Source: Candidatus Spongiihabitans thiooxidans (GTDB taxonomy: Bacteria; Pseudomonadota; Gammaproteobacteria; Arenicellales; Poriferihabitantaceae). From it: a stretch of DNA of 64,000 nt. Positions 19,509-37,520 of the stretch are shown here, piece by piece. Made by a program: the position numbers and the translations under genes. Each line of letters starts with the position of its first letter. The first letter of the stretch is position 1. Under the pieces are notes generated by a model that saw nothing but the letters and a program-made list of their open reading frames with translations, searched no databases and had not been told where the DNA came from. Location: the NCBI GenBank assembly GCA_001543005.1, contig LFLB01000008.1:1-64000 (forward strand), read 5' to 3'.

Positions 19509-21189
19509 ACAATCCTGTCGCTGGACCGGCTGGCGCCGACCGGCTTGACCGGCCTGACCGCCACGACCGGGGCCGGCCAAATCGCATTGAGCTGGACCGC
19601 GCCGCCCATCGGCCGGGGCACTTTCAGGGGCGCGAACTATGCCACCACCATTACCGGCTATCGCATTCAGGTCTCCACGGCTGGCAGCGCCTTCACCGAT
19701 CTGGTGGCCAACACCGGGAGCGCTGACACCACCTACACGCACACCGGCCTGAACTTGGATGACACGCATAACTATCGGGTGGCCACCCTCATTATGGATA
19801 GCACGAATACCCAAGCCGGGCGCCCAGATCTTTATGGTCGGCATATCGGTCAGCGTGGAACTGCCGCAAGCCACCGACGACATCGGGCCGTACACCTACA
19901 CCCTGACCGGGCCGAACGACGCGGCTGTGAGCGCCACCGTCCCAGGCCTGACCTTTGACCCTGAAAGCCGCATCCTGTCTGGCGCACCGGTTACCGCCGC
20001 CGCTCCCGTCACGCTGACCTACAGGGTCACCGGCAAATTCGGCACCACCGCCATGCAGACCTTTTCCGTGACCGTCGGCCTCGCGTCGGCACGTACCCCC
20101 GATGCGTCGACTAATCTGATAGCAACCCCGATGGGCACCCAGGTAGCGCTAACCTGGACAGCCCCGAGCAATAACGGCGGTGCTGCTATTATCGGCTACA
20201 CGCTGCAACGCGCAGAAGGTACGAGTGGTGGCACATTCAACAATGTTTCTGGCACAGTTACCGGCACCAGCCACACCGATACCGGACTAAGCCCCGGCAC
20301 CGGGGATTATTCTAATGGGTTACTGCCAGCATTGTTTCCGTCGATGACTTTATCACCACTTGGCGGACAACCACTGCGAGTGAGCAAATCACCTTCCCCG
20401 GCGAAGGGGCTTATAGTATTGACTGGAGAGACGGCACGACTGAGCAAGTAACCGGTGCAACTACTCACAGCTACGCCACCGCCGGCGACTACGACATCAT
20501 CGTTAGCAACAACATTACCCACTTTAACTTAAATGATGGCGCGGACAAAGACAAACTCATAGAGGTCAAACAGTGGGGGACTGCGTCCTGGAGGAATATG
20601 GAAGGCGCATTTCGTGGTGCCAGCAATATGCAGATAACCGCCACAGAGAAGCCTGACCTTTCGGGGGTTACTTCCATGGCGGTAATGTTCTTTGGTGCCT
20701 ACACCTTTAACGGCAACATTAGCGGCTGGAATGTTAGCGCGGTAACGAATATGTCTTTCATGTTCTTTCACGCCACCGCCTTTAACGGCGACATCGGCGG
20801 CTGGGATGTTAGCGCGGTCAGGACTATGGCCTTCATGTTCAAAGACGCCACCGCCTTTCGCCAAAATCTGGGTCTCTGGTATATTGTGCCTGGCACAACC
20901 GCCAGCTACGATGGCAAAACGAATCTTGAAGTGCTTGGCCTCAGCGCACAAAATGCCGTTTTAGACGGACAAACCCCAGAATATAGACTGGTTGCAGGCG
21001 AGGGCGATGGCGATAATGGTAGCTTCACCCTCACGGACGGGGCATTAAACATTAAGGCTGCCGAAGCCAGCGGCGGCGACTACCGCATACGCATTGCCGC
21101 CGGCGGTGTGGCATTCGGCACCAATAACGCCAGAGCAATAACCGTGGTCGTGCCAGTAAGCACCCCCGATGCGCCGACTAGCTTGACGG

Positions 21190-21870
21190 CAGTCTCAACC
21201 CCAAATGGCACGGGTGCAACAATAACCTGGACAGCCCCAAGCAATACCGGCGGTGCTGCTATTACCGGCTACACTGTCCAACGCGCACCAGGTACGAGTG
21301 GTGGCACATTCGCCACCGTCAGCCCTGCACACACTGGCACCGGGACCACTTATACCGATAGCGGACTAAGCCCCGGCACCACCTATCGCTACCAGGTTGC
21401 CGCTAACAACGGCACACGCACCAGTGCTACTGCTGAAGCCAGCGTAACCACCTTTGCCGTCCCCGATGCCCCGACCATCTCGACGATAGTCTCAACCTCA
21501 AATGGCACGGGTGCAACAATAACCTGGACAGCCCCAAGCAATACCGGTGGTGCTGCTATTACCGGCTACACTGTCCAACGCGCACCAGGTACGAGTGGTG
21601 GCACATTCGCCACCGTCAGCCCTGCACACACTGGCACCGGGACCACTTATACCGATAGCGGACTAAGCCCCGGCACCACCTATCGCTACCAGGTTGCCGC
21701 TAACAACGGCACACGCACCAGTGCTACTGCTGAAGCCAGCGTAACCACCTTTGCCGTCCCCGATGCCCCGACCATCTCGACGATAGTCTCAACCTCAAAT
21801 GGCACGGGTGCAACAATAACCTGGACAGCCCCAACCAATACCGGTGGTGCTGCTATTACCGGCTACAGGC
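21190..21870 (+). repeat. 297-bp FN3-coding tandem repeats
   Basis: The marker cgggtgcaac recurs at 21211, 21508 and 21805, a period of exactly 297 bp (99 codons, one fibronectin type III domain plus linker). The first two units are almost identical; the third matches for only its first ~60 bp before diverging. This indicates a recent unequal-crossover or slippage duplication. Confidence 0.85.
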
Positions 21871-23540
21871 TAGAACGCGCAGGAACGGACGGCTCATTCT
21901 CCTCTGTATACACTGGTCCCAGTACCAATTATGTCGACCGCAATCTACCCACCGGCACCACCTATCGCTACCGGGTTCTCGCTACTAACGACGTAGGCGA
22001 AGGTTCTTATTCTACTGAAGCCGACGTAACCATCTTTGCCGTCCCCGATGCCCCGACCAACGTGGTGGTAGTTTTAATACGCGGAAGTGGCACGAGTGCA
22101 AGATTAACCTGGGGAGAACCGACCAAGACGGGCGGCGATGTCATCACCGGCTACGCCATCGAACGTGAGAGTGGTGGCTCCACCACCATCATCAGCACTG
22201 GCGCCGGGACCGTGAGCCCTTATGACGATACCGGTTTAACCTTCGGCACCACCTATCGCTATCAGGTTGCCGCTATTAACAGCGCAGGCACCGGTGCTTA
22301 TTCTGGTAGTGTTTTTGTTACTATCAACCCAGCACTAACACTGGCCGCTTCCGACCAGATCTACACGGTAGACGTGGCGAGGAGCCTGACATTGCCAGCA
22401 GCTACTGACGGCACGGCTCCCTACACCTCCTACACCCTAACTCCTTTGCCAGCCAACCTGGCGTTTGATGGCGACGTCACCAAGCGCATCCTGTCTGGCG
22501 CGCCGACTGTAATAACTACGGGAATCGAGCTGACCTACATGGTCACCGATAGCAACGATGTCACTGCTGAGGACACATTCAGGGTCATCGTCAATGCCGC
22601 ACCAGTAGCACTGGAGCTTTCCGATCCGGACGACCTGATATACACTGCCGGGGAGCCGATCACCGATGTGCCATTGCCGAGTGCCGCCGGCGGCACCGGC
22701 ACCCTCAACTACGCCCTGATTGGCACCTTGCCAGACGGACTGACGGTGACCCCAGCGGTCTTCCCGAGCACGACCGCACCAGTAATCAGCGGCATGCCAC
22801 GCACCCAATCAGCTGCGGTCACGCTGACCTACGAGGTCACCGACAGTGCCAGCACGCCCATCACCAAGACGCAGACCTTCACCATCACCGTTAACCCGGC
22901 GCTGACGCTTACCAAGCCAGCCGACCGGATGTTCACTGCCAATATGGCGATTGGCGATGTGCCATTGCCGGGCGCCACCGCGCCGTACACCTACGCCTTG
23001 ACCGGGCCGAACGATGTGGCTGTGGGTGCCGCTATCCCCAACCTGAGCTTTGACCGCACCACCCACATCCTGTCCGGCACGCTGACCGGGGATGTAGAGA
23101 CGGTCACGCTGACCTACACGGTTACCGATAGCAACGGTGCTACTGCTGAGGATACCTTCACCGTCACTGTCAATGCCGCACTAACGCTGAACGCACCCAG
23201 CGATCAGACCTACACGATGGGCACGAGGATCACCACTCTGACATTGCCCGTGGCAGCAGGTGGCACCGGCGCCCTCAGCTACACGCTGACCGGCGACCTG
23301 CCGGCCGGACTGAGCTTTGATGCCGACACCCGTATGCTGAGTGGTACGCCGAAAACGGAGGGGACAACCACGCTGACCTACAGGGTCACCGACACCAACG
23401 GCGCCAGCGCTGAGGTCACCTTCACAGTCACCGTCAATGCCGGACTAACGCTGAACGCACCCAGCGATCAGACCTACACCCTGAACACGGCGATTGCCGA
23501 TCTGACATTGCCCGTAGCCGCAGGTGGTACGGCTCCCTAC

Positions 23541-23890
23541 ACCTACACCCTGACCGGCACCCTGCCAACCGGACTGAACTTTAATGCCGCCACCCACATG
23601 CTGAGGGGTACGCCGACTGTGGTCACAGCCGCGGTCACGCTGACCCACACGGTCCTTGATGCCAACGGTGCCGCAGCTCTTGCCACATTCACGGTTACCG
23701 TCACCCTCGCGCCGCTGGCACTTACCGATCCAGCGAACCAGACATTCACTGTCGGAGCGAGGATCACCGATCTGACATTGCCGCAAGCCACCGGCGGTAT
23801 CGGGTCGTACACCTACACCCTGACCGGCACCCTGCCAACCGGACTGAACTTTAATGCCGCCACCCACATGCTGAGGGGTACGCCGACTGC
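23541..23890 (+). repeat. Duplicated segment in Ig-like domains
   Basis: A stretch of about 75 bp encoding YTYTLTGTLPTGLNFNAATH and the following residues occurs at about 23541 and again, identical by eye, at about 23811. The spacing matches one putative-Ig domain (~270 bp), so neighbouring domains have exchanged or duplicated sequence recently. Confidence 0.75.
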
Positions 23891-24782
23891 GGTGGCAGCA
23901 GCGGTCACGCTGAGCTACAGAGTCACCGACAGCGCCACCCCGTCCGCCACCGAGACGCAAGAATTCACCATCACCATTGACCCAGAGAACGGTTTCGCCG
24001 AACTCAACGAAGCCATTTCGCTGCAAATCGTTAGTGCCATAGTCAGCAATACAACCGGCGCAATTGGGGACAGAACAAGTAAAGCTGCCAGCGGTATCGT
24101 TGCTGCTGTTTCATGGGACGAGCAAATAAGCAAATCCCTGACCTCACTATCGAATAGCAATGGCGACATCGACCTCAAAAAAGCCCTCAGCACCGTTGAT
24201 ATTGCGATGCCATTATTAAACGCCAGCGGCTCTAATGCCCGAAACTCACTCTCCTTATGGATCGGTGGTAACTACCGCAACATTAGTGGCAAAAGGGGCG
24301 TAATCAATTGGGACGGCGAGCTATACGGTATTAATGCTGGCATAGACACCCAAATTGCCAAAAACATTCTGGCAGGTGTCGCCGTCTCATGGTCGCAAGG
24401 CGACCTGGATTACAAAAATGACGACAAAAAAGGCGACTACGAAATTGATATGTTAAGCGTCAACCCCTATCTTGGCTGGAATATTGGCAAAGTTGATATG
24501 TGGGGAACGCTCGGCTACGGGCAAGGTAATTTAGAAACCACCCCGGAAATGACCTTAACCTGATCAATGCAGCCTTGGGTGCCAGCGGCGAAATATGGCG
24601 CAACGAAAACACCCAATTGCGCTTAAAAAGCGAAGCCAGTACTGCTCGTCTGGAAGTCGAAAAAAGTAAACAAGACGGTAGTGTAGACCAAGACATTGAT
24701 ACCTTCCTATTACGTTTAGGCTTATCAAGCAATAACACGAGGTACAGTTTTAATTAACGCTACACTTGCCCCCTGATTGACG

Positions 24783-25473: not shown

Positions 25474-27621
25474 ATGCCACAACTCGAACACATTGAAGTG
25501 ATTGAACGGCGTCTCTGGGGCGCGGCGGACACGCTACGCGCGAACTCCAACTACGCCAGCAATGAATACTTCCTGCCGGTCATGGGCCTGGTGTTCCTGC
25601 GCCATGCCTACAGCCGCTACCTGGCGGTCAAGGACAAGATCGAGGCCAATCTGCCCACCCGCGGCGGCCGGAAACGAGCACCGACCAAAGAGGACTTCTC
25701 CCAGCAGAGCGCCATTTTCCTGCGGCCCGAGGCGCGGTTCGACCATCTCGTGGCGCTGCCCGACAGCAATGACCGCGCCAGGGCCATTAGCGATGCAATG
25801 GAGTCCATCGAGGCTGACTACGCAAGTTTGCGCGGCGTCCTGCCCAAGGGCGAATATCAGGAACTGGACAACGATGTCCTCGGCCAACTCCTGCGCACCC
25901 TCAACCCCGACGAACTCAAGCAGGTGTCAGGTGATGTGTTCGGCCGCATCTACGAATACTTCCTGACCCAGTTCGCCGACCAGAAAGCCCACGACGGCGG
26001 CGAGTTCTTCACGCCGGTCTCATTGGTGTCGCTGATCGCCCACGTGCTCGACCCCGACCGCGGCACCGTATTCGACCCGGCCTGCGGCTCCGGCGGCATG
26101 TTCGTGCAGAGCGCCCGCACCGTGGAGGAACACGGTCAAAACCCCACCGAGCGGCTCACCTTCCGCGGCCTGGAGAAGAATGAAACCACCATCCGTCTGG
26201 CCAAGATGAACCTGGCCGTCCACGGCCTCGAAGGCGACATCAAAAAGGCCATCACCTACTACCAGGACCCGCACGCGTTGCTGGGCAAGGCCGACTATGT
26301 GATGGCCAATCCTCCCTTCAACGTGGACGAGATAGACGCCGACAAGATCAAGACCGACCCGCGTCTGCCTTTCGGCCTGCCCGGCGTCAACAAAAAGGAC
26401 AAGGTTTCCAATGGCAACTATGTCTGGATCAGTTACTTCTACAGTTACCTGAACGAGAAGGGGCGGGCCGGCTTCGTCATGTCATCCCAAGCCTCCAGCG
26501 CCGGCGGCGGCGAGGCAAAAGTGCGGCAGAAACTGGTGGAGAGCGGCGACGTGGACGCGATGATCGCCATCCGCTCCAACTTCTTCTACACCCGCACCGT
26601 GCCCTGCGAGTTATGGTTCCTGAACCGCGCCAAACCCGGGAAACACCGCGACAAAGTGCTGATGATTGACGCGCGCAATGTGTATCGGAAAGTTACGCGC
26701 AAGATCTACGACTTCAGCCCCGAACAACAGCACAACCTGCTGGCCATCGTCTGGCTCTACCGCGGCGAGACCGGGCGCTACCTCGACCTGGTGTCCGGCT
26801 ACTGCGCCCGCACCCTGGATGAAAGCCAGGCCTGCTGCGGCGCCGGGAATGAACAGGGTCAGGAGGTTAAACCATTGCCCGATTTCCTCGCCGCGCTCAC
26901 CAGTTTGCAGGACGCGCTGGCCCCCTTCCTCAAAACCCTGGCTACGGACGATGCGCACGCCGCGGCGTCCAAAGAACTGATGGATGCCCTGCCCGTATTC
27001 AAGGTCAATGTGGACGCCTTCAACAAGGCGGTCGCCACAGAGCAGGCGGCATGGAGCCGTCAAAAAACCGACAACGGCGCCCTCAAACAGGCCGTGGAGC
27101 GCCTCGCCCCGTTAACCGAGACCAGCCGCGACCTCATCAGGCAGACCGACCTGCTGTATAAATTCGCCACCCGCCTGATAGAAACCTGCGAGAAAGAATG
27201 TGGCGCCAGGTCCAGCGACGCCTGGAACGGCCGCGACATCACCCGCGCTCGAAAAGAAGCCGATCGTTTTCGATTACTACTCACATCGCACGACATCAAG
27301 AAACCGGTTGATGAATGGGGTGTGCTTCCCAGGGTGCGCTACTTCTGGCGCCAGGCCCACTGGCTCACCGAGCGTTTCCCCGAAGCCGAACTCTGCGATG
27401 TGGAAGGGCTGGTCAAACTGGTTGCCCGCGAAGAGATTGCCGCCAACGACTGGAGCCTGACCCCCGGCCGCTATGTGGGCGTCGCCCCCGAGGAGGAAGA
27501 CGCGGACTTCGACTTTGAAGAGTCCCTGCGCGAGATACACATCGAACTGGAAGACCTCAACGCCGAAGCCGTCACTCTGGCGGCGACCATCAAAAAGAAC
27601 TTCGAGGAGTTGGGGATATGA
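25474..27621 (+). CDS. hsdM: Type I restriction-modification DNA methyltransferase subunit HsdM
   Basis: The 715-residue protein is the modification subunit of a type I R-M system. It has an N-terminal HsdM helical domain (about 1-150) and a SAM-binding motif FDPACGSGGMF starting at residue 200. The catalytic N6-adenine motif NPPF is at 279-282, and a long C-terminal helical region (about 480-715) ends in a coiled segment used for subunit contacts. With HsdS it methylates adenine in the recognition sequence; with HsdR it forms the restriction complex. It is the first gene of the island operon and its stop overlaps the next gene by four bases. GC content is clearly higher than in the hsdS-Argonaute part downstream. 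Confidence 0.96.
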   Translation: MPQLEHIEVIERRLWGAADTLRANSNYASNEYFLPVMGLVFLRHAYSRYLAVKDKIEANLPTRGGRKRAPTKEDFSQQSAIFLRPEARFDHLVALPDSNDRARAISDAMESIEADYASLRGVLPKGEYQELDNDVLGQLLRTLNPDELKQVSGDVFGRIYEYFLTQFADQKAHDGGEFFTPVSLVSLIAHVLDPDRGTVFDPACGSGGMFVQSARTVEEHGQNPTERLTFRGLEKNETTIRLAKMNLAVHGLEGDIKKAITYYQDPHALLGKADYVMANPPFNVDEIDADKIKTDPRLPFGLPGVNKKDKVSNGNYVWISYFYSYLNEKGRAGFVMSSQASSAGGGEAKVRQKLVESGDVDAMIAIRSNFFYTRTVPCELWFLNRAKPGKHRDKVLMIDARNVYRKVTRKIYDFSPEQQHNLLAIVWLYRGETGRYLDLVSGYCARTLDESQACCGAGNEQGQEVKPLPDFLAALTSLQDALAPFLKTLATDDAHAAASKELMDALPVFKVNVDAFNKAVATEQAAWSRQKTDNGALKQAVERLAPLTETSRDLIRQTDLLYKFATRLIETCEKECGARSSDAWNGRDITRARKEADRFRLLLTSHDIKKPVDEWGVLPRVRYFWRQAHWLTERFPEAELCDVEGLVKLVAREEIAANDWSLTPGRYVGVAPEEEDADFDFEESLREIHIELEDLNAEAVTLAATIKKNFEELGI

Positions 27622-28145
27622 AGCCCGGCAAGAAAATCATCATCATCGCCGGACCAAACGGGGCGGGTAAGACAACCTTTGCCAGGGAATACTTGCCCAA
27701 CGAGGCGGATTGCCCGGTTTTTGTCAATGCTGATCTGATAGCGGCAGGCATCGCCCCATTTTTGCCGGGCACCGTTGCCTTGCGCGCCGGGCGGCAGATG
27801 CTGGAGGAAATCAACAACCACGCCCGCAAGGGCAGGAGTTTTGCCTTTGAAACCACGCTTTCAGGCCGGGGCTATATCAGGAAGATCCGTCAATGGCGCA
27901 CCGATGGCTACAGGGTGAATCTGATATTTCTGTCGCTCGCGTCGCCTGGAGAAGCCGTCAGGCGCGTACACTTACGGGAGCAACAAGGCGGGCACCCTAT
28001 CCCGGAAGCGGTCATACTTCGTCGCTTCCATGCCGGTTTGCGCAATTTTCATGATATCTATCGCCATTGTGTTGACCACTGGCAGCACTTTGACAACAGC
28101 GGCGCCGGGCTTGTCCTGAAAGATGAAGGAGGCGACAACCGATGA
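27618..28145 (+). CDS. Zeta-toxin-like P-loop kinase
   Basis: The 175-residue protein is a zeta-toxin-family P-loop kinase: Walker A GPNGAGKTT (12-20), the substrate-site NADLIAAGI (about 36-44), the FETTLSGRGYI segment (about 76-86) and a later RRVHLRE motif that fits the lid arginine. Characterised zeta toxins phosphorylate UDP-N-acetylglucosamine and poison cell-wall synthesis. Short stand-alone relatives such as this one are common beside R-M genes and may phosphorylate other substrates. It overlaps hsdM (ATGA) upstream and the small gene downstream by four bases, so the three are translationally coupled. Codon use is like hsdM. Confidence 0.82.
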   Translation: MKPGKKIIIIAGPNGAGKTTFAREYLPNEADCPVFVNADLIAAGIAPFLPGTVALRAGRQMLEEINNHARKGRSFAFETTLSGRGYIRKIRQWRTDGYRVNLIFLSLASPGEAVRRVHLREQQGGHPIPEAVILRRFHAGLRNFHDIYRHCVDHWQHFDNSGAGLVLKDEGGDNR

Positions 28146-28403: not shown

Positions 28404-29495
28404 ATGAGTTGGGAACAGGTCCAATTAGTGGACATCGTTTCTTTGAGGACGGGCAAACTCGATTCCAACGCAGCTGTAGAAGATGGCAGCCACCCATTCT
28501 TCACTTGTGCGCAACAAACGTTCAGGATTGATGAACCTGCATTCAATACAAAGGCAGTCCTATTAGGCGGGAACAACGCCGCTGGTATCTTCCCACTCAA
28601 ATACTACGAAGGGCAGTTCAATGCTTACCAGCGAACGTATGTGATCGAATCCCTTGATCCCAACGTTCTGATTATTCGGTTTCTCTATTATGCGCTCAGG
28701 CCGGCGCTATCGCACTTCCAATCAGCCTCTATCGGGGCTGCTACCCAGTATTTGACTAAAGGAATCCTCGATAGTTTCAAAGTAGGCATACCGCCAATCG
28801 CCACGCAAAATTGCATCGTCTCCATCCTCTCCACCTACGACAACCTGATTGAAAACAACCGACGGCGTATTCAATTGCTGGAACAAGCGGCGTGGCTACT
28901 CTACAAGGAATGGTTCGTCCACCTCCGCTTCCCCGGCCACGAACACACCACCATCACCAACGGCATCCCGGCAGGGTGGGAGAGGAAGACCTTAGGCGAT
29001 GTAGTAAAGGTGGTAAAGGGAAAGAACATCACAAAGGATTCGGTCAAGAACGGTTCCGTGCCAGTTGTCGCCGGTGGTTTATCTCCAGCCTATTACCACG
29101 ATACGGCTAATGCGGTGGGACCAGTCATCACTGTTAGCGCCTCTGGAGCCAATGCTGGATATGTGAACCTCTATCATGAGGACATTTGGGCATCTGACTG
29201 CTCTTATATCAGCACAACGTCAACTGAATATCTATGCTATTTCTACCTGCTTCTCACATCAAAGCAGAAAGAAGTATTCGGTTTCCAAAAGGGTGTTGCA
29301 CAGCCTCATGTCTATCCGAAGGACTTGCAAAGGTTGCCATTGTTTGAACCAACAAAAAACATTGTCAGGTTATTTGAGGAATTTGTTTTATGCAATTTCA
29401 AGCAAGTCAAGATACTTCTTGCACAAAACAAGTTACTCACCCAAGCCCGCGACCTGCTCCTGCCACGTTTGATGAACGGAGTTATATCAATGTGA
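28404..29495 (+). CDS. hsdS: Type I restriction-modification specificity subunit HsdS
   Basis: The 363-residue protein has two target-recognition domains separated by conserved helices. TRD1 covers about 1-130, with the first conserved region (NRRRIQLLEQAAWLLYKEWF) at about 153-172. TRD2 spans about 190-320, with the second (AQNKLLTQARDLLLPRLMNG) near the C-terminus. HsdS chooses the bipartite DNA target for methylation and cleavage. It is slightly short for the family but both halves are complete. A ribosome-binding-like GAGG precedes the ATG. The zeta-like kinase pair separates it from hsdM, and the Argonaute gene begins 8 bp after its stop. Confidence 0.94.
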   Translation: MSWEQVQLVDIVSLRTGKLDSNAAVEDGSHPFFTCAQQTFRIDEPAFNTKAVLLGGNNAAGIFPLKYYEGQFNAYQRTYVIESLDPNVLIIRFLYYALRPALSHFQSASIGAATQYLTKGILDSFKVGIPPIATQNCIVSILSTYDNLIENNRRRIQLLEQAAWLLYKEWFVHLRFPGHEHTTITNGIPAGWERKTLGDVVKVVKGKNITKDSVKNGSVPVVAGGLSPAYYHDTANAVGPVITVSASGANAGYVNLYHEDIWASDCSYISTTSTEYLCYFYLLLTSKQKEVFGFQKGVAQPHVYPKDLQRLPLFEPTKNIVRLFEEFVLCNFKQVKILLAQNKLLTQARDLLLPRLMNGVISM

Positions 29496-29503
29496 ACATA
29501 CGC

Positions 29504-31447
29504 ATGAATAGATACAATTCGATGGATAGTCATCAGGATAGCTATCGTCTTTCCTTAAATTTTCTTCCGTTATTGGATCCAATCCCAGAGTTCACTGTTT
29601 ACCGACAGGCTAAAGATTCACCCCAAGCACTTCGCCCAGATGACCAAGTGCGTTCATACAAGCTCCCGGAAAATATTGAACATTCTCACAATGGCAATCC
29701 ATGGAGTTCCTATTGGATCTCCTATCAGCAACGAGATAATTTTACTTCATTTACTGTTTCAGCTGAAATGAATCTCTGGCTCACCCGCAGTGCGATATTT
29801 TGGGCGCTATCAAATAAAGTCCGTGAAACCCTGCCATCCGACAAATTTAATATTCCGAAAAAGAGCTTTATTGAACAGATAGAATTTGTTCAGAAAACCC
29901 ACAATGAAGGCGAAGAAATTCTCATTATTCAACCATACTTCCTGAAAATAACAAGGCAATTTGGTGTTCTAGCCGATTTTCGTTTCCGTCTTCGGGGTGG
30001 TGTCTCATTTTCACGGCGTGTGCAACAACTCAGCTTAAGTTTGAATAGCGATTATCGCCGTAATTTGGATTACTGTGCGGATAGGTGGTCTCGAATACAC
30101 GAGTTCCTTAACGAAAGAAAAGACATTCTAAAGGATGTTCGTTTACCTAGTGCAAATGATACTCTCAATTTTGCTGAGAGTTTTATCGATCTTTCAGCGG
30201 ATACTTTGGAAAACAAGACGTATATCTTTGGAGATGGAAAACAATCCAAGGAGCAATTTACAGGCCTTCGTAGTTATGGTCCCTTAAAACCGTTAGAAAG
30301 TGGTATTAATCTTCTTTTCATCTTTCGGGAGCAAGATAGACATGCAGCACGTCTTCTGGCTAAAGGCTTGAAAAGCAACCAACCCATTTTCCCTGGATTT
30401 GATAATCTCTTTCGATGCACACTTCAAATAGACAAGGAACCGTTCGTACTTCCTGACCTGAGCCAGGAATCTATTCAAGAGGCATTAATCTACACCCAGC
30501 AGAAAAATGATACTCACTCTACGTTGGTTCCAATCCTTATCTTGCCAGAGGATGACGACAGTTATTTTATTCAGAAGTCCTTGTTTTCTAATGCCTTAAT
30601 TGCTAGTCAGGTCTGCACGTTGAAAACTTTGAAAGATAGCTACTCATTAAAATGGTCTCTCTCTAACATTGCTTTACAAATATTTTGCAAGGCTGGTGGA
30701 TATCCATGGAAGGTGATGCCCTCTAGTGATGACTCACTGATTATTGGCATAAGTCAGTCACACAAATATAGAGAAGACAATGACTATCCACAAATTGAAA
30801 AATACTTTGCCTTCTCTATTATGACGGATAACAGCGGTTTATTTCAGAATTTGCAGATACTCGGTGAAGGAGATAATGAAGATAACTACATAAATGATTT
30901 AAAAAATAATCTGAAAGAAATGCTTATCCGAAAAGTCGGTGATTTTTCTCGCATTGTTGTTCATACATCTTTTAAATTAAAATATCATGAAATAACGGCA
31001 ATCAAGGATGTCATTACTGAGATTGCGCAGGATGAATCATCGTCTTGCCATTTTGTGGTCATGAAAGTAAACCACCAACATCGATTTTTTGGAGTTAATA
31101 AAAGAGTCAATAGTTTGGTGCCTTATGAGGCGACTTATGTCAAGTTGGCGAGGCAAGAATATCTCGTATGGTTCGAGGGGATAGGGCTAGGCAAAACAAC
31201 TGTCAGTAAAGCCTTTCCTGGCCCAACTCATTTAGAAGTGCTGTATAACAGCAATGATGACATTGATCATAAGATATTATTGCAGGACTTAGTCAATCTG
31301 TCAGGAGCCAATTGGCGTGGCTTCAATGCAAAAAGTTCTCCTGTTTCAGTTTATTATTGTCACTTGGTTGCGGATTTTATCCGTAAATTCCATGAGCATG
31401 GCCTACCTATACCTGAAGTAAGGAATATCCAACTGTGGTTCCTTTAG
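29504..31447 (+). CDS. Prokaryotic Argonaute, catalytically inactive, apparently PAZ-less
   Basis: The 647-residue protein reads as an Argonaute. The N-terminal part (about 1-260) has N/L1/L2- or APAZ-like features, including PYFLKITRQFGVLADFRFRL and GLRSYGPLKP. A MID domain (about 262-405) has the guide 5'-phosphate pocket pattern Y354-K358-Q369-K396 (CKAGGYPW). A PIWI domain follows (about 406-647). The first catalytic Asp of PIWI is Ser (IIGIS, 412-416), and the second site reads VVHTSFK rather than HRDG, so slicing activity should be absent. There is little room for a PAZ domain. ATG 29504 is the first start after the hsdS stop; ATG 29522 is possible. It forms a tight pair with the SIR2 gene 10 bp downstream, and both are AT-richer than hsdM and hsdR. 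A guide-directed sensor role is inferred. Confidence 0.85.
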   Translation: MNRYNSMDSHQDSYRLSLNFLPLLDPIPEFTVYRQAKDSPQALRPDDQVRSYKLPENIEHSHNGNPWSSYWISYQQRDNFTSFTVSAEMNLWLTRSAIFWALSNKVRETLPSDKFNIPKKSFIEQIEFVQKTHNEGEEILIIQPYFLKITRQFGVLADFRFRLRGGVSFSRRVQQLSLSLNSDYRRNLDYCADRWSRIHEFLNERKDILKDVRLPSANDTLNFAESFIDLSADTLENKTYIFGDGKQSKEQFTGLRSYGPLKPLESGINLLFIFREQDRHAARLLAKGLKSNQPIFPGFDNLFRCTLQIDKEPFVLPDLSQESIQEALIYTQQKNDTHSTLVPILILPEDDDSYFIQKSLFSNALIASQVCTLKTLKDSYSLKWSLSNIALQIFCKAGGYPWKVMPSSDDSLIIGISQSHKYREDNDYPQIEKYFAFSIMTDNSGLFQNLQILGEGDNEDNYINDLKNNLKEMLIRKVGDFSRIVVHTSFKLKYHEITAIKDVITEIAQDESSSCHFVVMKVNHQHRFFGVNKRVNSLVPYEATYVKLARQEYLVWFEGIGLGKTTVSKAFPGPTHLEVLYNSNDDIDHKILLQDLVNLSGANWRGFNAKSSPVSVYYCHLVADFIRKFHEHGLPIPEVRNIQLWFL

Positions 31448-32751: not shown

Positions 32752-32988
32752 ATGCCCACTGCACATACCAAGATCTTCATGAGCAACAAAAGTCAGGCGG
32801 TCAGGCTGCCCAAGGCGGTTGCGTTGCCGGAATCGTTGCGAGAGGTGGATATCGTGGCGATTGGTTCAAAGCGCATCATTACCCCTGCCGGGGAGAGTTG
32901 GGACGAGTGGTTTGACGGGGCTGGTGTCTCGGAGGATTTTATGTCTTCACGGGAGCAACCGAAGGACCAGCAGCGGGAAATACTCTGA
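32752..32988 (+). CDS. vapB: VapB-type antitoxin, AbrB/SpoVT fold
   Basis: This 78-residue antitoxin has an N-terminal swapped-hairpin AbrB-like DNA-binding region (KIFMSNKSQAVRLPKAVALP, then a REVDIVAIGSKRIITP strand pair). The acidic C-terminal tail contains the WDEWF segment that wraps its toxin. A strong GAGGAG ribosome-binding site precedes it. Its stop overlaps the toxin start (TGATG at 32986-32990). It probably represses its own promoter through the palindrome at 32710-32730. Confidence 0.88.
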   Translation: MPTAHTKIFMSNKSQAVRLPKAVALPESLREVDIVAIGSKRIITPAGESWDEWFDGAGVSEDFMSSREQPKDQQREIL

Positions 32989-33413
32989 TGATCCGGTATC
33001 TGCTGGATACCAACATAATGATTTATGCCATCAGGAACCGGCCTCGGTTATTGCGTGAAAAATTCAATCGCTTACCAGATCAGATGGCGATTTCTTCCGT
33101 CACCTGGGGGGAGCTTGTCTATGGGGTTGAACGCTCCGCTCAACCTGATCGTAATTTGGCGGATATTGAATCCATGGCGGCCAGACTTGAGGTGATACCG
33201 TTTGATCAATCGGCGGCGAATCATTGTGGCCGGATTCGGGCGGATCTGCATCGTGTCGGTACGCCCATTGGTCCTTACGACATGATGATTGCCGGTCAGG
33301 CACGCGCCCGCGGCCTGGTTCTGGTAACGAATAACCTGCGGGAGTTTAGGCGAGTTACGGGATTGATGCTGGAGAACTGGATGGCCCGGTCACCTGCCGG
33401 CAAACCGAAATGA
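32988..33413 (+). CDS. vapC: VapC-type PIN-domain toxin
   Basis: The 141-residue toxin has a PIN ribonuclease domain with acidic residues in LLDTN (D7), WGELVYG and PYDMMIA, as in VapC toxins that cleave tRNA or rRNA. It is paired with the AbrB-type antitoxin upstream. Its stop codon overlaps the ATG of the hsdR remnant that follows (33410-33413), which shows that this module once sat directly against hsdR. Confidence 0.9.
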   Translation: MIRYLLDTNIMIYAIRNRPRLLREKFNRLPDQMAISSVTWGELVYGVERSAQPDRNLADIESMAARLEVIPFDQSAANHCGRIRADLHRVGTPIGPYDMMIAGQARARGLVLVTNNLREFRRVTGLMLENWMARSPAGKPK

Positions 33414-33635: not shown

Positions 33636-33833
33636 ATGAGAACCACCTTGAACATAGACGATGAATTATTGAAAAAAGCGCAAAAAATCACGGGAATGGC
33701 GGGGAAAACCGCCTTGGTCAGAGAAGGTCTGCGCGCCTTGATTGAACGGGAAAGCGCCCGGCGGCTGGCACGGCTGGGGGGGAGCGAGCCACAGTTGCAA
33801 GTTGCCACTCGACGGCAATCCAAATCAGCGTGA
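33636..33833 (+). CDS. vapB: VapB-type antitoxin, ribbon-helix-helix fold
   Basis: The 65-residue protein begins MRTTLNIDDELLKKAQKITG, the classical ribbon-helix-helix start of this antitoxin class, followed by KTALVREGLRALIERE and a basic tail. It is a different antitoxin family from the AbrB-type vapB1, so the two modules are not simple duplicates. A GGAGG lies about 8 bases upstream. The stop overlaps the GTG start of its toxin. Confidence 0.88.
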   Translation: MRTTLNIDDELLKKAQKITGMAGKTALVREGLRALIERESARRLARLGGSEPQLQVATRRQSKSA

Positions 33834-34198
33834 TTCTGGTGGACACCTCCGTTTGGATGGATCATTTGCGTCGCGTGGATGACGGTCTGGCATCGATGCT
33901 GAATGACAATCAGGCCATGATCCATCCTTTTGTGATTGGCGAACTGGCGTGCGGCAATTTGAAAAATCGCACCGAGGTGCTATCGAGACTCCAGGATTTG
34001 TTCACGGTTCCTGCCGCCACTGACGCCGAAGTGCTTTTCTTTATTGAACGGCAACAGTTGATGGGGCAGGGGATTGGATATGTTGATGCCCATCTGCTAA
34101 CCGCTACCGCTCTGCTCTCGTCGGCGTGTCTATGGACGCGGGACAAGCGGTTGCGGAGCGTCGCGGCTTCCCTTGAACTGCTTTACAAAACTCATTGA
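33830..34198 (+). CDS. vapC: VapC-type PIN-domain toxin
   Basis: The 122-residue PIN-domain protein has VDTSVW at the N-terminus (first Asp), IGELACG in the middle and GYVDAHLL near the third acidic position. It starts with GTG at 33830, overlapping the antitoxin stop. It is distinct in sequence from VapC at 32988. It precedes the intact hsdR by 82 bp. Confidence 0.9.
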   Translation: MILVDTSVWMDHLRRVDDGLASMLNDNQAMIHPFVIGELACGNLKNRTEVLSRLQDLFTVPAATDAEVLFFIERQQLMGQGIGYVDAHLLTATALLSSACLWTRDKRLRSVAASLELLYKTH

Positions 34199-34280
34199 TG
34201 GTCGTAGCACGGAACTCGCCCCATAGAGTCCTGATGAACAGGAAACCGATAGCGTATTGAAGCAGGCAAAGCAACCCAGC

Positions 34281-37200
34281 ATGACTCCAACCCCCTACAC
34301 CGAAGACACCCTCGTCCAGCAGACCACGGCGGAGTATCTGCAGCGGCAACTCGGCTGGGACTCGGTGTATACCTATAACAACGAGGACTTCGGGGTGGAC
34401 AGTCTGTTGGGGCGCGCTTCCGACTGCGATGTGGTGTTGACGCGCGCGCTACGCGAGACATTGGTGGAGTTGAACCCGTGCCTGCCCGGTGCCGCCTACG
34501 ACGATGCGGTGCGGCAGATCACCGCCACCGCCGCATCGCAGACCACCATTGCCGCCAACCGCGAAAAGTACAACCTCCTACGGGACGGCGTGCGAGTCGC
34601 CTTCCGCGACGATGAAGGCAATCAGCAGCGGGAGCACCTGCGGGTCTTTGATTTTGATACGCCGGAGAACAATCACTTCCTTTGTGTCCGCGAACTGTGG
34701 ATACGCGGCGATCTCTATCGCCGCCGGGCTGACATCATCGGCTTTGTCAATGGCCTGCCGTTGCTGTTCATGGAGTGCAAGAATATCTACCATGACCTCA
34801 AGGTTGCCTTTGAACAGAACTACTCCGACTACCACGACACCATCCCGCACATATTCCATCACAACGCGGTGGTGATGTTCGGCAACGGGGAGAAGGCGAA
34901 GATCGGCTCCATCACCAGCGAGTGGGGGCATTTTCACGAGTGGAAGCGGCTGGCCGAGCAGGAGCCCGGCGCGGTGGACATGGAGACGTTGCTCAAGGGC
35001 GTGTGCGAGAAGCGCAATTTCATGGATCTGCTGGAGAATTTCATTCTCTTTGATGAGTCCTCGGGCCAGCTGAAAAAAATCCTGGCCCGCAATCACCAGT
35101 TTCTCGGCGTCAATCTGGCCATTGCAGCAGTGCGGGAGCGCACGGCGCGACAGGGCAAACTCGGTGTTTTCTGGCACACCCAGGGCGCCGGCAAGAGTTA
35201 CTCCATGGTGATGTTCACCCGCAAGGTGCATCGCAAACTGGGCGGCAACTTCACGTTTCTGGTGCTGACGGATCGCGACGACCTGGATTCGCAGATATAC
35301 AAGACCTTCGCCGGCTGTGGCGTGGTGAATCACGACCGCGACCCCTGCCGCGCTGCCAACGGAGAGCACCTGCGCGCGCTGCTGGCCGAGCACAAGTCGC
35401 ATATCTTCTCGCTGATCCAGAAGTTCAACCGGGATGTGGACCCCGACGAAGGCTACACCCGGCGCGACGATGTCATTGTCATCACCGACGAGGCCCACCG
35501 CACCCAATACGGCACGCTGGCGCTCAATATGCGCAATGCCTTGCCCCATGCCAGTTATATCGGCTTCACCGGCACGCCGCTTTTCAAGGACGACCAGATC
35601 ACGCGGCGGATTTTCGGCGAATATGTCTCAACCTATGATTTTCAGCGGGCGGTGGAAGACCAGGCCACGGTGCCGCTCTACTACGATGCCCGTGGCGACA
35701 AACTGAAGGTGACAATCGGCGACCTGAACGAGCGCATCGCCGAGAAACTGGAGGAACTGGAGACCGACGACATGGATGTGGAACAGCGGCTGGAACGGGA
35801 ACTGAAGCGCGACTACCACATCATCACCGCCGGCAAGCGGCTCGACCAGGTGGCGCGGGACTTCGTTCAGCACTACTCGACAGCATGGGAGAACGGCAAG
35901 GTGATGCTGGTGTGCATCGACAAGGTGACCTGTGTGCGGATGTTCAAGCTGATTGAGTCCTACTGGGACGAGCGCGTCGAGGAGTTGGAAAAGCATCTGG
36001 CGCGGGCGGCCGACGCGCAGAAAGCGGCCGAACTGCGGCGGCAGATAGACTGGATGCGCGAGACCCGCATGGCGGTGGTGGTGAGCGAGGAGCAAGGCGA
36101 GGTGGATAAGTTCCGTCAGTGGGATCTGGATATCAAACCCCATCGTCGGCTCATCAAGGAGGGTATGGACCTGCCCGAGGTGGTGAGCGACAAACCGCAG
36201 TTCCGCAACATGCAACGGATGGAACTGGACGAGGCTTTCAAGGAAGAGGAGCATCCGTTCCGTATCGCCATCGTCTGCGCCATGTGGCTGACCGGTTTTG
36301 ATGTGCCGAGTCTCTCCACGCTCTACCTCGACAAGCCGCTCAAGGCGCATACCCTGATGCAGGCCATCGCCCGCGCCAATCGGGTGAACGAAGGCAAGAA
36401 TAATGGCCTGATCGTGGATTACTGCGGCATCCTGAAGCACCTGCGCAAGGCGCTGGCGACCTTCGCCGGAACCAAACCGGGAAAAGACGGCGGAGTTCTC
36501 GACCCTGCGCGTCCCGAGGCAGAACTGCTGGCTGACCTGGCCGAGGCGATCGCTTTGGTGCGGGCGTTTCTCGGGGAACGGCAAGCTCCGCTGGACAAGG
36601 TCGTCGGGAAGGTCGGCTTTGAACGCAACGCCGCCATCGTGGCCTGCAAGGAAGCGGTCAACGAGAACGACGAGACCCGCAAACGCTTTGAGGTAATGTG
36701 TCGCGAGGTATTCAAGAAGTTCAAGGCGTGCATCAACGTGCAAGGCGTCAACGCCCACCGGACCGACCGCGACGCCATCAACATTATCTACAAGAGCCTG
36801 CAGCAGGATCGGGAGCAGGCCGACATCAGCGACATCATCCGCAAGTTGCATGAGGTGGTGAGCGATTTGATTGAAGTTCAACCTGATGCGGCCTACAAAC
36901 AAGCGACTTACGACATCAGCCGCATCGATTTCGACCGACTCAAGCAGGAGTTTGCGCGAAGCACCAGCAAGCGCACCACCGTCCAGACGCTCAAGGACTG
37001 CGTGGAGAAGAAACTCGCGCGTCTGTTGGCACGCAACCCTCTGCGCGCTAATTTCCAGGAGCACTACGAGGAGATCATTGTGCAGTATAACCGTGAAAAA
37101 GACCGGGCGACCATTGAGCAGACCTTTGAGGCGCTGCTGAAACTTGTTGGTGAACTGGACGAGGAAGACAAGCGCGCCGTGCGTGAAGGTCTGGACGAGG

Positions 37201-37520
37201 AATCGCTGGCGATCTTTGACCTGCTCAGGAAACCCGAACTCAGCGCGGCGGAGATCAAGCGGATCAAGGAGGTTTCAGTCGCGCTGCTCGTCGTTTTGAA
37301 GGAAGGAATACTCCGTATTGACCAGTGGCGGGATAAAGAAGCGACCCGTGACGCGGTGCAGGTCGCTATTCGTGACTTTCTCTGGGACGATGACACCGGG
37401 CTGTCGCCGGATTGCTACAAGGAAGCCGATGTGGAAATCCGGGTGCACGATGTGTTCAAGCACGTATACCGTGCTTACCCCGAGGTGCCGTCGCCGTACT
37501 ACGAAAGTGCGACGGTATGA
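34281..37520 (+). CDS. hsdR: Type I restriction enzyme endonuclease/translocase subunit HsdR
   Basis: The 1079-residue protein is the restriction subunit of the type I system. The N-terminal PD-(D/E)xK nuclease region has E165-C-K167 (LLFMECKN). The SF2 translocase has Walker A GAGKS at 302-306, DEAHR from 403 and GFTGTP shortly after. A long C-terminal helical region binds the HsdM/HsdS core. It uses ATP to pull DNA and cuts at a distance when methylation is lacking. ATG 34281 is chosen because the remnant at 33410 begins with the same residues; a TTG at 34257 is also open. It is the last gene of the island and GC-rich like hsdM. Confidence 0.95.
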   Translation: MTPTPYTEDTLVQQTTAEYLQRQLGWDSVYTYNNEDFGVDSLLGRASDCDVVLTRALRETLVELNPCLPGAAYDDAVRQITATAASQTTIAANREKYNLLRDGVRVAFRDDEGNQQREHLRVFDFDTPENNHFLCVRELWIRGDLYRRRADIIGFVNGLPLLFMECKNIYHDLKVAFEQNYSDYHDTIPHIFHHNAVVMFGNGEKAKIGSITSEWGHFHEWKRLAEQEPGAVDMETLLKGVCEKRNFMDLLENFILFDESSGQLKKILARNHQFLGVNLAIAAVRERTARQGKLGVFWHTQGAGKSYSMVMFTRKVHRKLGGNFTFLVLTDRDDLDSQIYKTFAGCGVVNHDRDPCRAANGEHLRALLAEHKSHIFSLIQKFNRDVDPDEGYTRRDDVIVITDEAHRTQYGTLALNMRNALPHASYIGFTGTPLFKDDQITRRIFGEYVSTYDFQRAVEDQATVPLYYDARGDKLKVTIGDLNERIAEKLEELETDDMDVEQRLERELKRDYHIITAGKRLDQVARDFVQHYSTAWENGKVMLVCIDKVTCVRMFKLIESYWDERVEELEKHLARAADAQKAAELRRQIDWMRETRMAVVVSEEQGEVDKFRQWDLDIKPHRRLIKEGMDLPEVVSDKPQFRNMQRMELDEAFKEEEHPFRIAIVCAMWLTGFDVPSLSTLYLDKPLKAHTLMQAIARANRVNEGKNNGLIVDYCGILKHLRKALATFAGTKPGKDGGVLDPARPEAELLADLAEAIALVRAFLGERQAPLDKVVGKVGFERNAAIVACKEAVNENDETRKRFEVMCREVFKKFKACINVQGVNAHRTDRDAINIIYKSLQQDREQADISDIIRKLHEVVSDLIEVQPDAAYKQATYDISRIDFDRLKQEFARSTSKRTTVQTLKDCVEKKLARLLARNPLRANFQEHYEEIIVQYNREKDRATIEQTFEALLKLVGELDEEDKRAVREGLDEESLAIFDLLRKPELSAAEIKRIKEVSVALLVVLKEGILRIDQWRDKEATRDAVQVAIRDFLWDDDTGLSPDCYKEADVEIRVHDVFKHVYRAYPEVPSPYYESATV

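Follow-up and report, generated by a model that had tools for sequence, protein, structure and literature searches.

A PAZ-less, catalytically inactive long-B Argonaute paired with a SIR2_2 protein as a probable BPAS-type defence unit in Candidatus Spongiihabitans thiooxidans

The stretch of DNA analysed here, hereafter the window, comprises 64,000 nucleotides of contig LFLB01000008.1 from Candidatus Spongiihabitans thiooxidans, and carries an Argonaute gene (ago) immediately followed by a gene for a SIR2 protein (sir2). This pair is best read, with a probability of about 0.9, as a defence unit of the type that Song et al. in 2023 named BPAS, in which a long-B prokaryotic Argonaute (pAgo) is joined by a Sir2_2 protein (PMC10620215). 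In the window, a PAZ-less and catalytically inactive long-B Argonaute would gate the depletion of nicotinamide adenine dinucleotide (NAD+) by a SIR2_2 NADase.

The ago reading frame is open throughout, ends in WFL followed by the stop codon, and starts 8 bases past the stop of the preceding hsdS gene (29495). Since the homologues begin near M7 in the alignment, the true start may be this methionine, at 29522. The PADLOC model pAgo_II (PDLC02381) matches the Argonaute over residues 15-647 (E 1.3e-203), and Piwi is the only Pfam family to match it (E 8e-21). The sir2 gene starts 10 bases beyond the ago stop codon, and its product matches the PADLOC model Aga_SIR2 Class II (PDLC02408) over residues 5-364 (E 5.7e-121) and, in Pfam, SIR2_2 (PF13289) alone (E 4.6e-9). 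As these are full-length matches to models of similar size (617 and 343 positions, respectively, in the 2023 defence database), both proteins had already been modelled before.

The Argonaute has no PAZ domain. Pfam PAZ matched neither the window protein nor any of 65 full-length relatives, for which Piwi is the sole common family (65/65), and it was equally absent from 50 N-terminal halves. The motif G-L-x-x-x-G-P begins at residue 254 and is thus preceded by 253 residues, against a median of ~234 in the 65 relatives, 309-339 in four EcAgo-like long-B proteins and, as read off the alignment, ~345 in RsAgo. The stretch ahead of the MID motif is therefore ~85 residues shorter than in RsAgo, the PAZ of which is itself already reduced (PMC4919518).

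The AlphaFold2 model of the Argonaute (mean predicted local distance difference test score, pLDDT, 92; 65-sequence alignment) reads N-L1-L2-MID-PIWI. Its best fold matches are AfAgo and RsAgo: VIA-align superposes residues 14-647 on RsAgo (Z 30, ~579 aligned, root-mean-square deviation 3.9-4.0) and residues 229-647 on the MID-PIWI part of AfAgo (Z 31.9, root-mean-square deviation 3.3). A profile search of the PDB with the Argonaute likewise ranks AfAgo, EcAgo and RsAgo first. In the N-terminal part of the model, a helix at 91-109 is followed by strands at 126-132, 136-147 and 152-163, a helix at 171-176 and the segment LSLSL at 176-180. This helix-strand-strand-strand-helix-strand order, up to residue 180, appears by its pattern to correspond to the N and L1 portions of RsAgo and EcAgo. 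Thereafter come a turn of ~10 residues, a helix at 190-209 and a few strands, before L2/MID is reached at ~229-254. The turn takes the place of the PAZ insertion of RsAgo and EcAgo, and the space between the L1-type end at residue 180 and MID is too small for a PAZ barrel. An earlier reading of the sequence only had proposed that the Argonaute leaves no room for PAZ, and this proposal holds: beside the missing Pfam match and the shorter N-terminal half, the model contains no barrel, and a clear PAZ fold sought in residues 80-240 of the monomer was not seen. The same reading had put the start of MID near residue 262, which is too far downstream, as similarity to the MID-PIWI part of AfAgo begins at ~229-237.

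Loss of PAZ in single-chain long-B pAgos is already published and is not new here. Ryazansky et al. reported 31 long pAgos without PAZ in 2018 (PMC6299218), and according to Manakova et al. 2024 single-chain long-B pAgos may be without the domain, all stages of its reduction being reported (PMC10954474). This gradation, which includes single-helix remnants in some long-B pAgos, raises the question as to whether the window Argonaute might keep a cryptic, highly reduced PAZ* of this kind instead of having lost the domain in full, and the helix at 190-209 does come after the L1-type end. However, only ~10 residues separate the end of LSLSL from this helix, which occupies the position expected of the L2 helix, and the model shows no extra barrel strands; a hidden remnant is therefore unlikely.

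The MID-PIWI half opens with the motif GLRSYGPLKP, which had been taken for an L1/L2- or APAZ-like element. Motifs of this type lie instead on the MID side, at residue ~30 of AfAgo and at residues 24-37 in 8 of the 10 short pAgos. Judged from these positions, the motif marks where MID-PIWI begins in long-B pAgos, split pAgos and most of the short pAgos examined, and is not a mark of APAZ. The YK-type pocket for the guide 5'-phosphate is intact: Y354, K358, Q369 and K396 are invariant (65/65) and correspond to Y463, K467, Q478 and K506 of RsAgo, mutation of which impairs silencing (PMC4919518). The PIWI domain lacks the catalytic (DEDX) tetrad, column 417 being occupied by G, S or A and column 489 by P, S or T among the 65 relatives, and because the catalytic aspartates are missing, slicing is not expected. 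A long-B group that combines an inactive PIWI with the YK motif has been described, as have pAgo operons that contain SIR2 and HsdS orthogroups (PMC6299218).

The partner protein is likewise well modelled (pLDDT 87). Its SIR2 fold fills residues 2-350 of 364, with no second domain, and so leaves no room for APAZ; the earlier description of a separate SIR2 protein without APAZ was correct. The model most resembles PsSIR2 of the SIR2-HerA systems (Z 26.4, 307 aligned), with canonical sirtuins and ThsA at Z ~16 and the SPARSA SIR2 at Z 15, while PADLOC models for SIR2-PNTD1-PNTD2 match over 32 residues only. The active-site residues N161, which lies within an SLNYD motif, and H214 are invariant in 29 of 29 relatives, and N161 is probably the equivalent of N112 in ThsA and N155 in GbAgaS.

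A single-sequence query against genome contigs found no relatives; an alignment-based scan with one genome per species yielded 70 loci, which are spread over many bacterial phyla and include one archaeal metagenome-assembled genome. In all 70, iterated hidden Markov model searches located a SIR2 homologue adjacent to, and downstream of, the Argonaute gene. The 65 Argonautes that were aligned measure 595-649 residues (median 636). On plasmids, tblastn returned homologues from Leptolyngbya (35%) and Hymenobacter (30%), and an annotated SIR2 gene follows those shown from Hymenobacter. No relatives were found in viral contigs and phage records, and within the taxonomic family of the window the search returned the window itself only. 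Two loci, L015 and L064, were considered as natural split Argonautes and rejected, since ago is interrupted there by insertions. At L015 (2570-7200, Candidatus Entotheonella), both ago and sir2 are broken by copies of what appears by eye to be an IS66-type transposase, and at L064 (237-7354, Anoxybacillus) ago is broken by a transposase and a metal-ATPase/regulator segment, again named by eye. A separate observation concerns L077 (3152-5344), on the conjugative Shewanella putrefaciens plasmid pSA70-2, where an EcAgo-like (BPAN) long-B Argonaute is annotated as 'lipase chaperone', although it aligns over its whole length with solved EcAgo (23wq).

Homology to characterized systems suggests how the pair may act. 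The two proteins would associate, with the Argonaute most likely restraining SIR2 within the complex, much as GbAgo restrains and co-purifies with GbAgaS, which kills when alone (PMC10620215). The conserved MID pocket would hold a small 5'-phosphorylated guide, which, to judge from RsAgo and EcAgo, is probably RNA, and pairing of this guide with complementary DNA of an invader would release or activate the SIR2 enzyme. The predicted outcome is abortive: SIR2 would deplete NAD+, and the cell would stop or die before the invader spreads. Consistent with such a scheme, GbAgaS depletes NAD+ in the presence of an invading plasmid, and its N155A mutation abolishes the effect (PMC10620215).

It is quite improbable that the pair serves some purpose other than NADase defence here, with SIR2 hydrolysing DNA or modifying proteins, or that the operon is silent: the residues of the NAD pocket are invariant in the 29 relatives, the pairing of ago with sir2 is universal among the relatives, and the BPAS system that was tested depletes NAD+ (PMC10620215). 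Several points nevertheless weigh against the assignment to BPAS. The likeness to GbAgo and GbAgaS is one of gene layout and description, and not of direct sequence comparison. Furthermore, the profile of the N-terminal half matched no relevant PDB chain, and no significant match emerged when N-terminal halves were compared with EcAgo-like proteins profile against profile, such that the N-L1-L2 assignment depends on the fold model, the domains being putatively named from fold matches and topology. Finally, the tree of MID-PIWI sequences was built without deliberately added long-A pAgos.

That tree (posterior mean site frequency model, 32 rows, with L003 and a split Haloplanus protein as long branches) places short pAgos and all long-B rows on opposite sides of a split supported at 100/100, and recovers a SIR2-associated clade, which includes the window Argonaute, at 100/99 and an EcAgo/RsAgo-like group at 100/99. 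By this placement, the window Argonaute belongs to long-B and is not an intermediate. The sequence-only reading had suggested a shifted domain boundary, which would mean a transfer of APAZ from SIR2 onto the Argonaute in an intermediate between SPARSA and long-B or an undescribed subtype; although APAZ finds its structural counterpart in N-L1-L2 (PMC10954474) and is missing from the SIR2 protein, this is highly implausible, as the MID-PIWI half groups with long-B and apart from short pAgos with full support, the SIR2_2-type partner is nearest to the SIR2 of SIR2-HerA and less like that of SPARSA, and the architecture is widespread, covered at full length by PADLOC and published as BPAS (PMC10620215). 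Because APAZ has been structurally equated with N-L1-L2 of long Argonautes (PMC10954474), the term 'APAZ-like' holds for any PAZ-less long Argonaute; it is apt for the N-terminus in this sense, and does not imply that a domain has moved from SIR2 to the Argonaute.

For the window itself, a BPAS-type pair is an ordinary finding. The compact, PAZ-less form is common to the entire sampled SIR2-associated clade, beyond odd examples, and PAZ loss is thus a stable property of the branch. This agrees with the published view that inactive Argonautes turn into guide-programmed switches for toxic effectors.

The pair is embedded in a type I restriction operon (Table 1), with hsdM, a zeta-like kinase gene and hsdS upstream and two PIN-domain genes and hsdR downstream. 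The GC content is 37-42% across ago-sir2 and ~60% in hsdM and hsdR, and this low value is consistent with a cassette that arrived later. Relatives of hsdM and hsdR occur on the same strand at L007, L009, L015, L036, L057 and L058, and hence in at least six distant relatives. As the association of HsdS with pAgo operons was listed in 2018 (PMC6299218), the hsd setting is an extension and not a discovery. The recurrence of hsd-embedded ago-sir2 in the window and six relatives could conceivably reflect functional coupling to restriction, an unlikely proposition; were it true, restriction products might supply guides or targets to the Argonaute, and SIR2 might serve as a back-up after failed restriction. 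Simple scans for promoters and terminators gave counts near the shuffle expectation. Past hsdR, a search for a copy of part of the upstream tRNA-Leu resembling an attachment-site repeat found none, the shared words lying only in a second tRNA-Leu. An unlisted frame from ~32753, upstream of the first PIN gene, resembles by eye a VagC/VapB-type antitoxin. Further upstream, ahead of the tRNA-Leu lying in front of the defence island, 20598-24563 encodes a repetitive protein of 1321 residues with BspA-like, fibronectin-type and cadherin-like repeats and, by eye, an autotransporter-like C-terminus.

Table 1. Features of the ago-sir2 pair and its surroundings (window coordinates)
Feature	Position	Strand	Evidence
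hsdM	25474-27621	+	Pfam/PADLOC
Zeta-toxin-like P-loop kinase, overlapping the hsdM 3' end, between hsdM and hsdS	27618-28145	+	Pfam Zeta_toxin, E 2e-10
hsdS	28404-29495	+	Pfam/PADLOC
PAZ-less long-B-type catalytically inactive Argonaute (N-L1-L2-MID-PIWI), 647 aa	29504-31447	+	PADLOC, Pfam, AlphaFold2, fold matches
Putative N-L1-L2 part, ~residues 1-228, counterpart of AfAgo-N / APAZ, without PAZ	29504-30187	+	Secondary structure of model, length deficit
GLRSYGPLKP, motif opening the MID-PIWI half	30263-30292	+	Same motif in AfAgo, EcAgo, RsAgo and short pAgos
MID 5'-phosphate pocket Y354, K358, Q369, K396	30563-30691	+	Invariant in relatives
PIWI positions 417 and 489 (catalytic Asp sites in slicer Argonautes)	30752-30970	+	Columns of 65 relatives
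SIR2_2-type effector (bAgaS-like), 364 aa	31458-32552	+	PADLOC, Pfam, AlphaFold2
Two PIN-domain genes between sir2 and hsdR	32988-33413, 33830-34198		
hsdR of type I restriction system	34257-37520	+	Pfam/PADLOC

Among known systems, the window pair shares with GbBPAS a two-gene unit in which an inactive long-B-type ago lies directly upstream of a separate SIR2_2 gene, as well as the conserved asparagine of the NAD pocket. It differs in that long-B pAgos are described there as four-domain proteins (PMC10620215), whereas the window Argonaute and its clade are without PAZ. A counterpart in sequence comes from Epilithonimonas bovis, the species of EbAgo, which serves as a single-chain long-B example in Fig. 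6C of PMC10954474. The E. bovis DSM 19482 locus (L040) encodes an Argonaute of 636 residues that is ~33% identical to that of the window over its full length, has the same downstream SIR2 and matches the same PADLOC models, but its host and gene neighbourhood are different. AfAgo-N/AfAgo, a split PAZ-less long-B protein, and SiAgo-Aga1 similarly combine N-L1-L2 with MID-PIWI in the absence of PAZ, yet do so in two polypeptides and with another effector. RsAgo and EcAgo (BPAN) share with the window Argonaute the long-B affiliation, the inactive PIWI and the same MID pocket; unlike it, they possess a longer stretch before the MID motif, shown for RsAgo to hold a reduced PAZ, and the partner of EcAgo is a nuclease. 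Canonical long Argonautes carry PAZ between L1 and L2, where neither Pfam, model nor length reveals one in the window protein. SPARSA would work alike, through a SIR2 effector under the control of an inactive Argonaute. However, its Argonaute is a short-clade protein of MID and PIWI only, its SIR2 is fused to APAZ in one polypeptide, and both belong to other branches, while the window pair consists of an unfused SIR2 and a long-B Argonaute with ~228 additional folded residues at its N-terminus.
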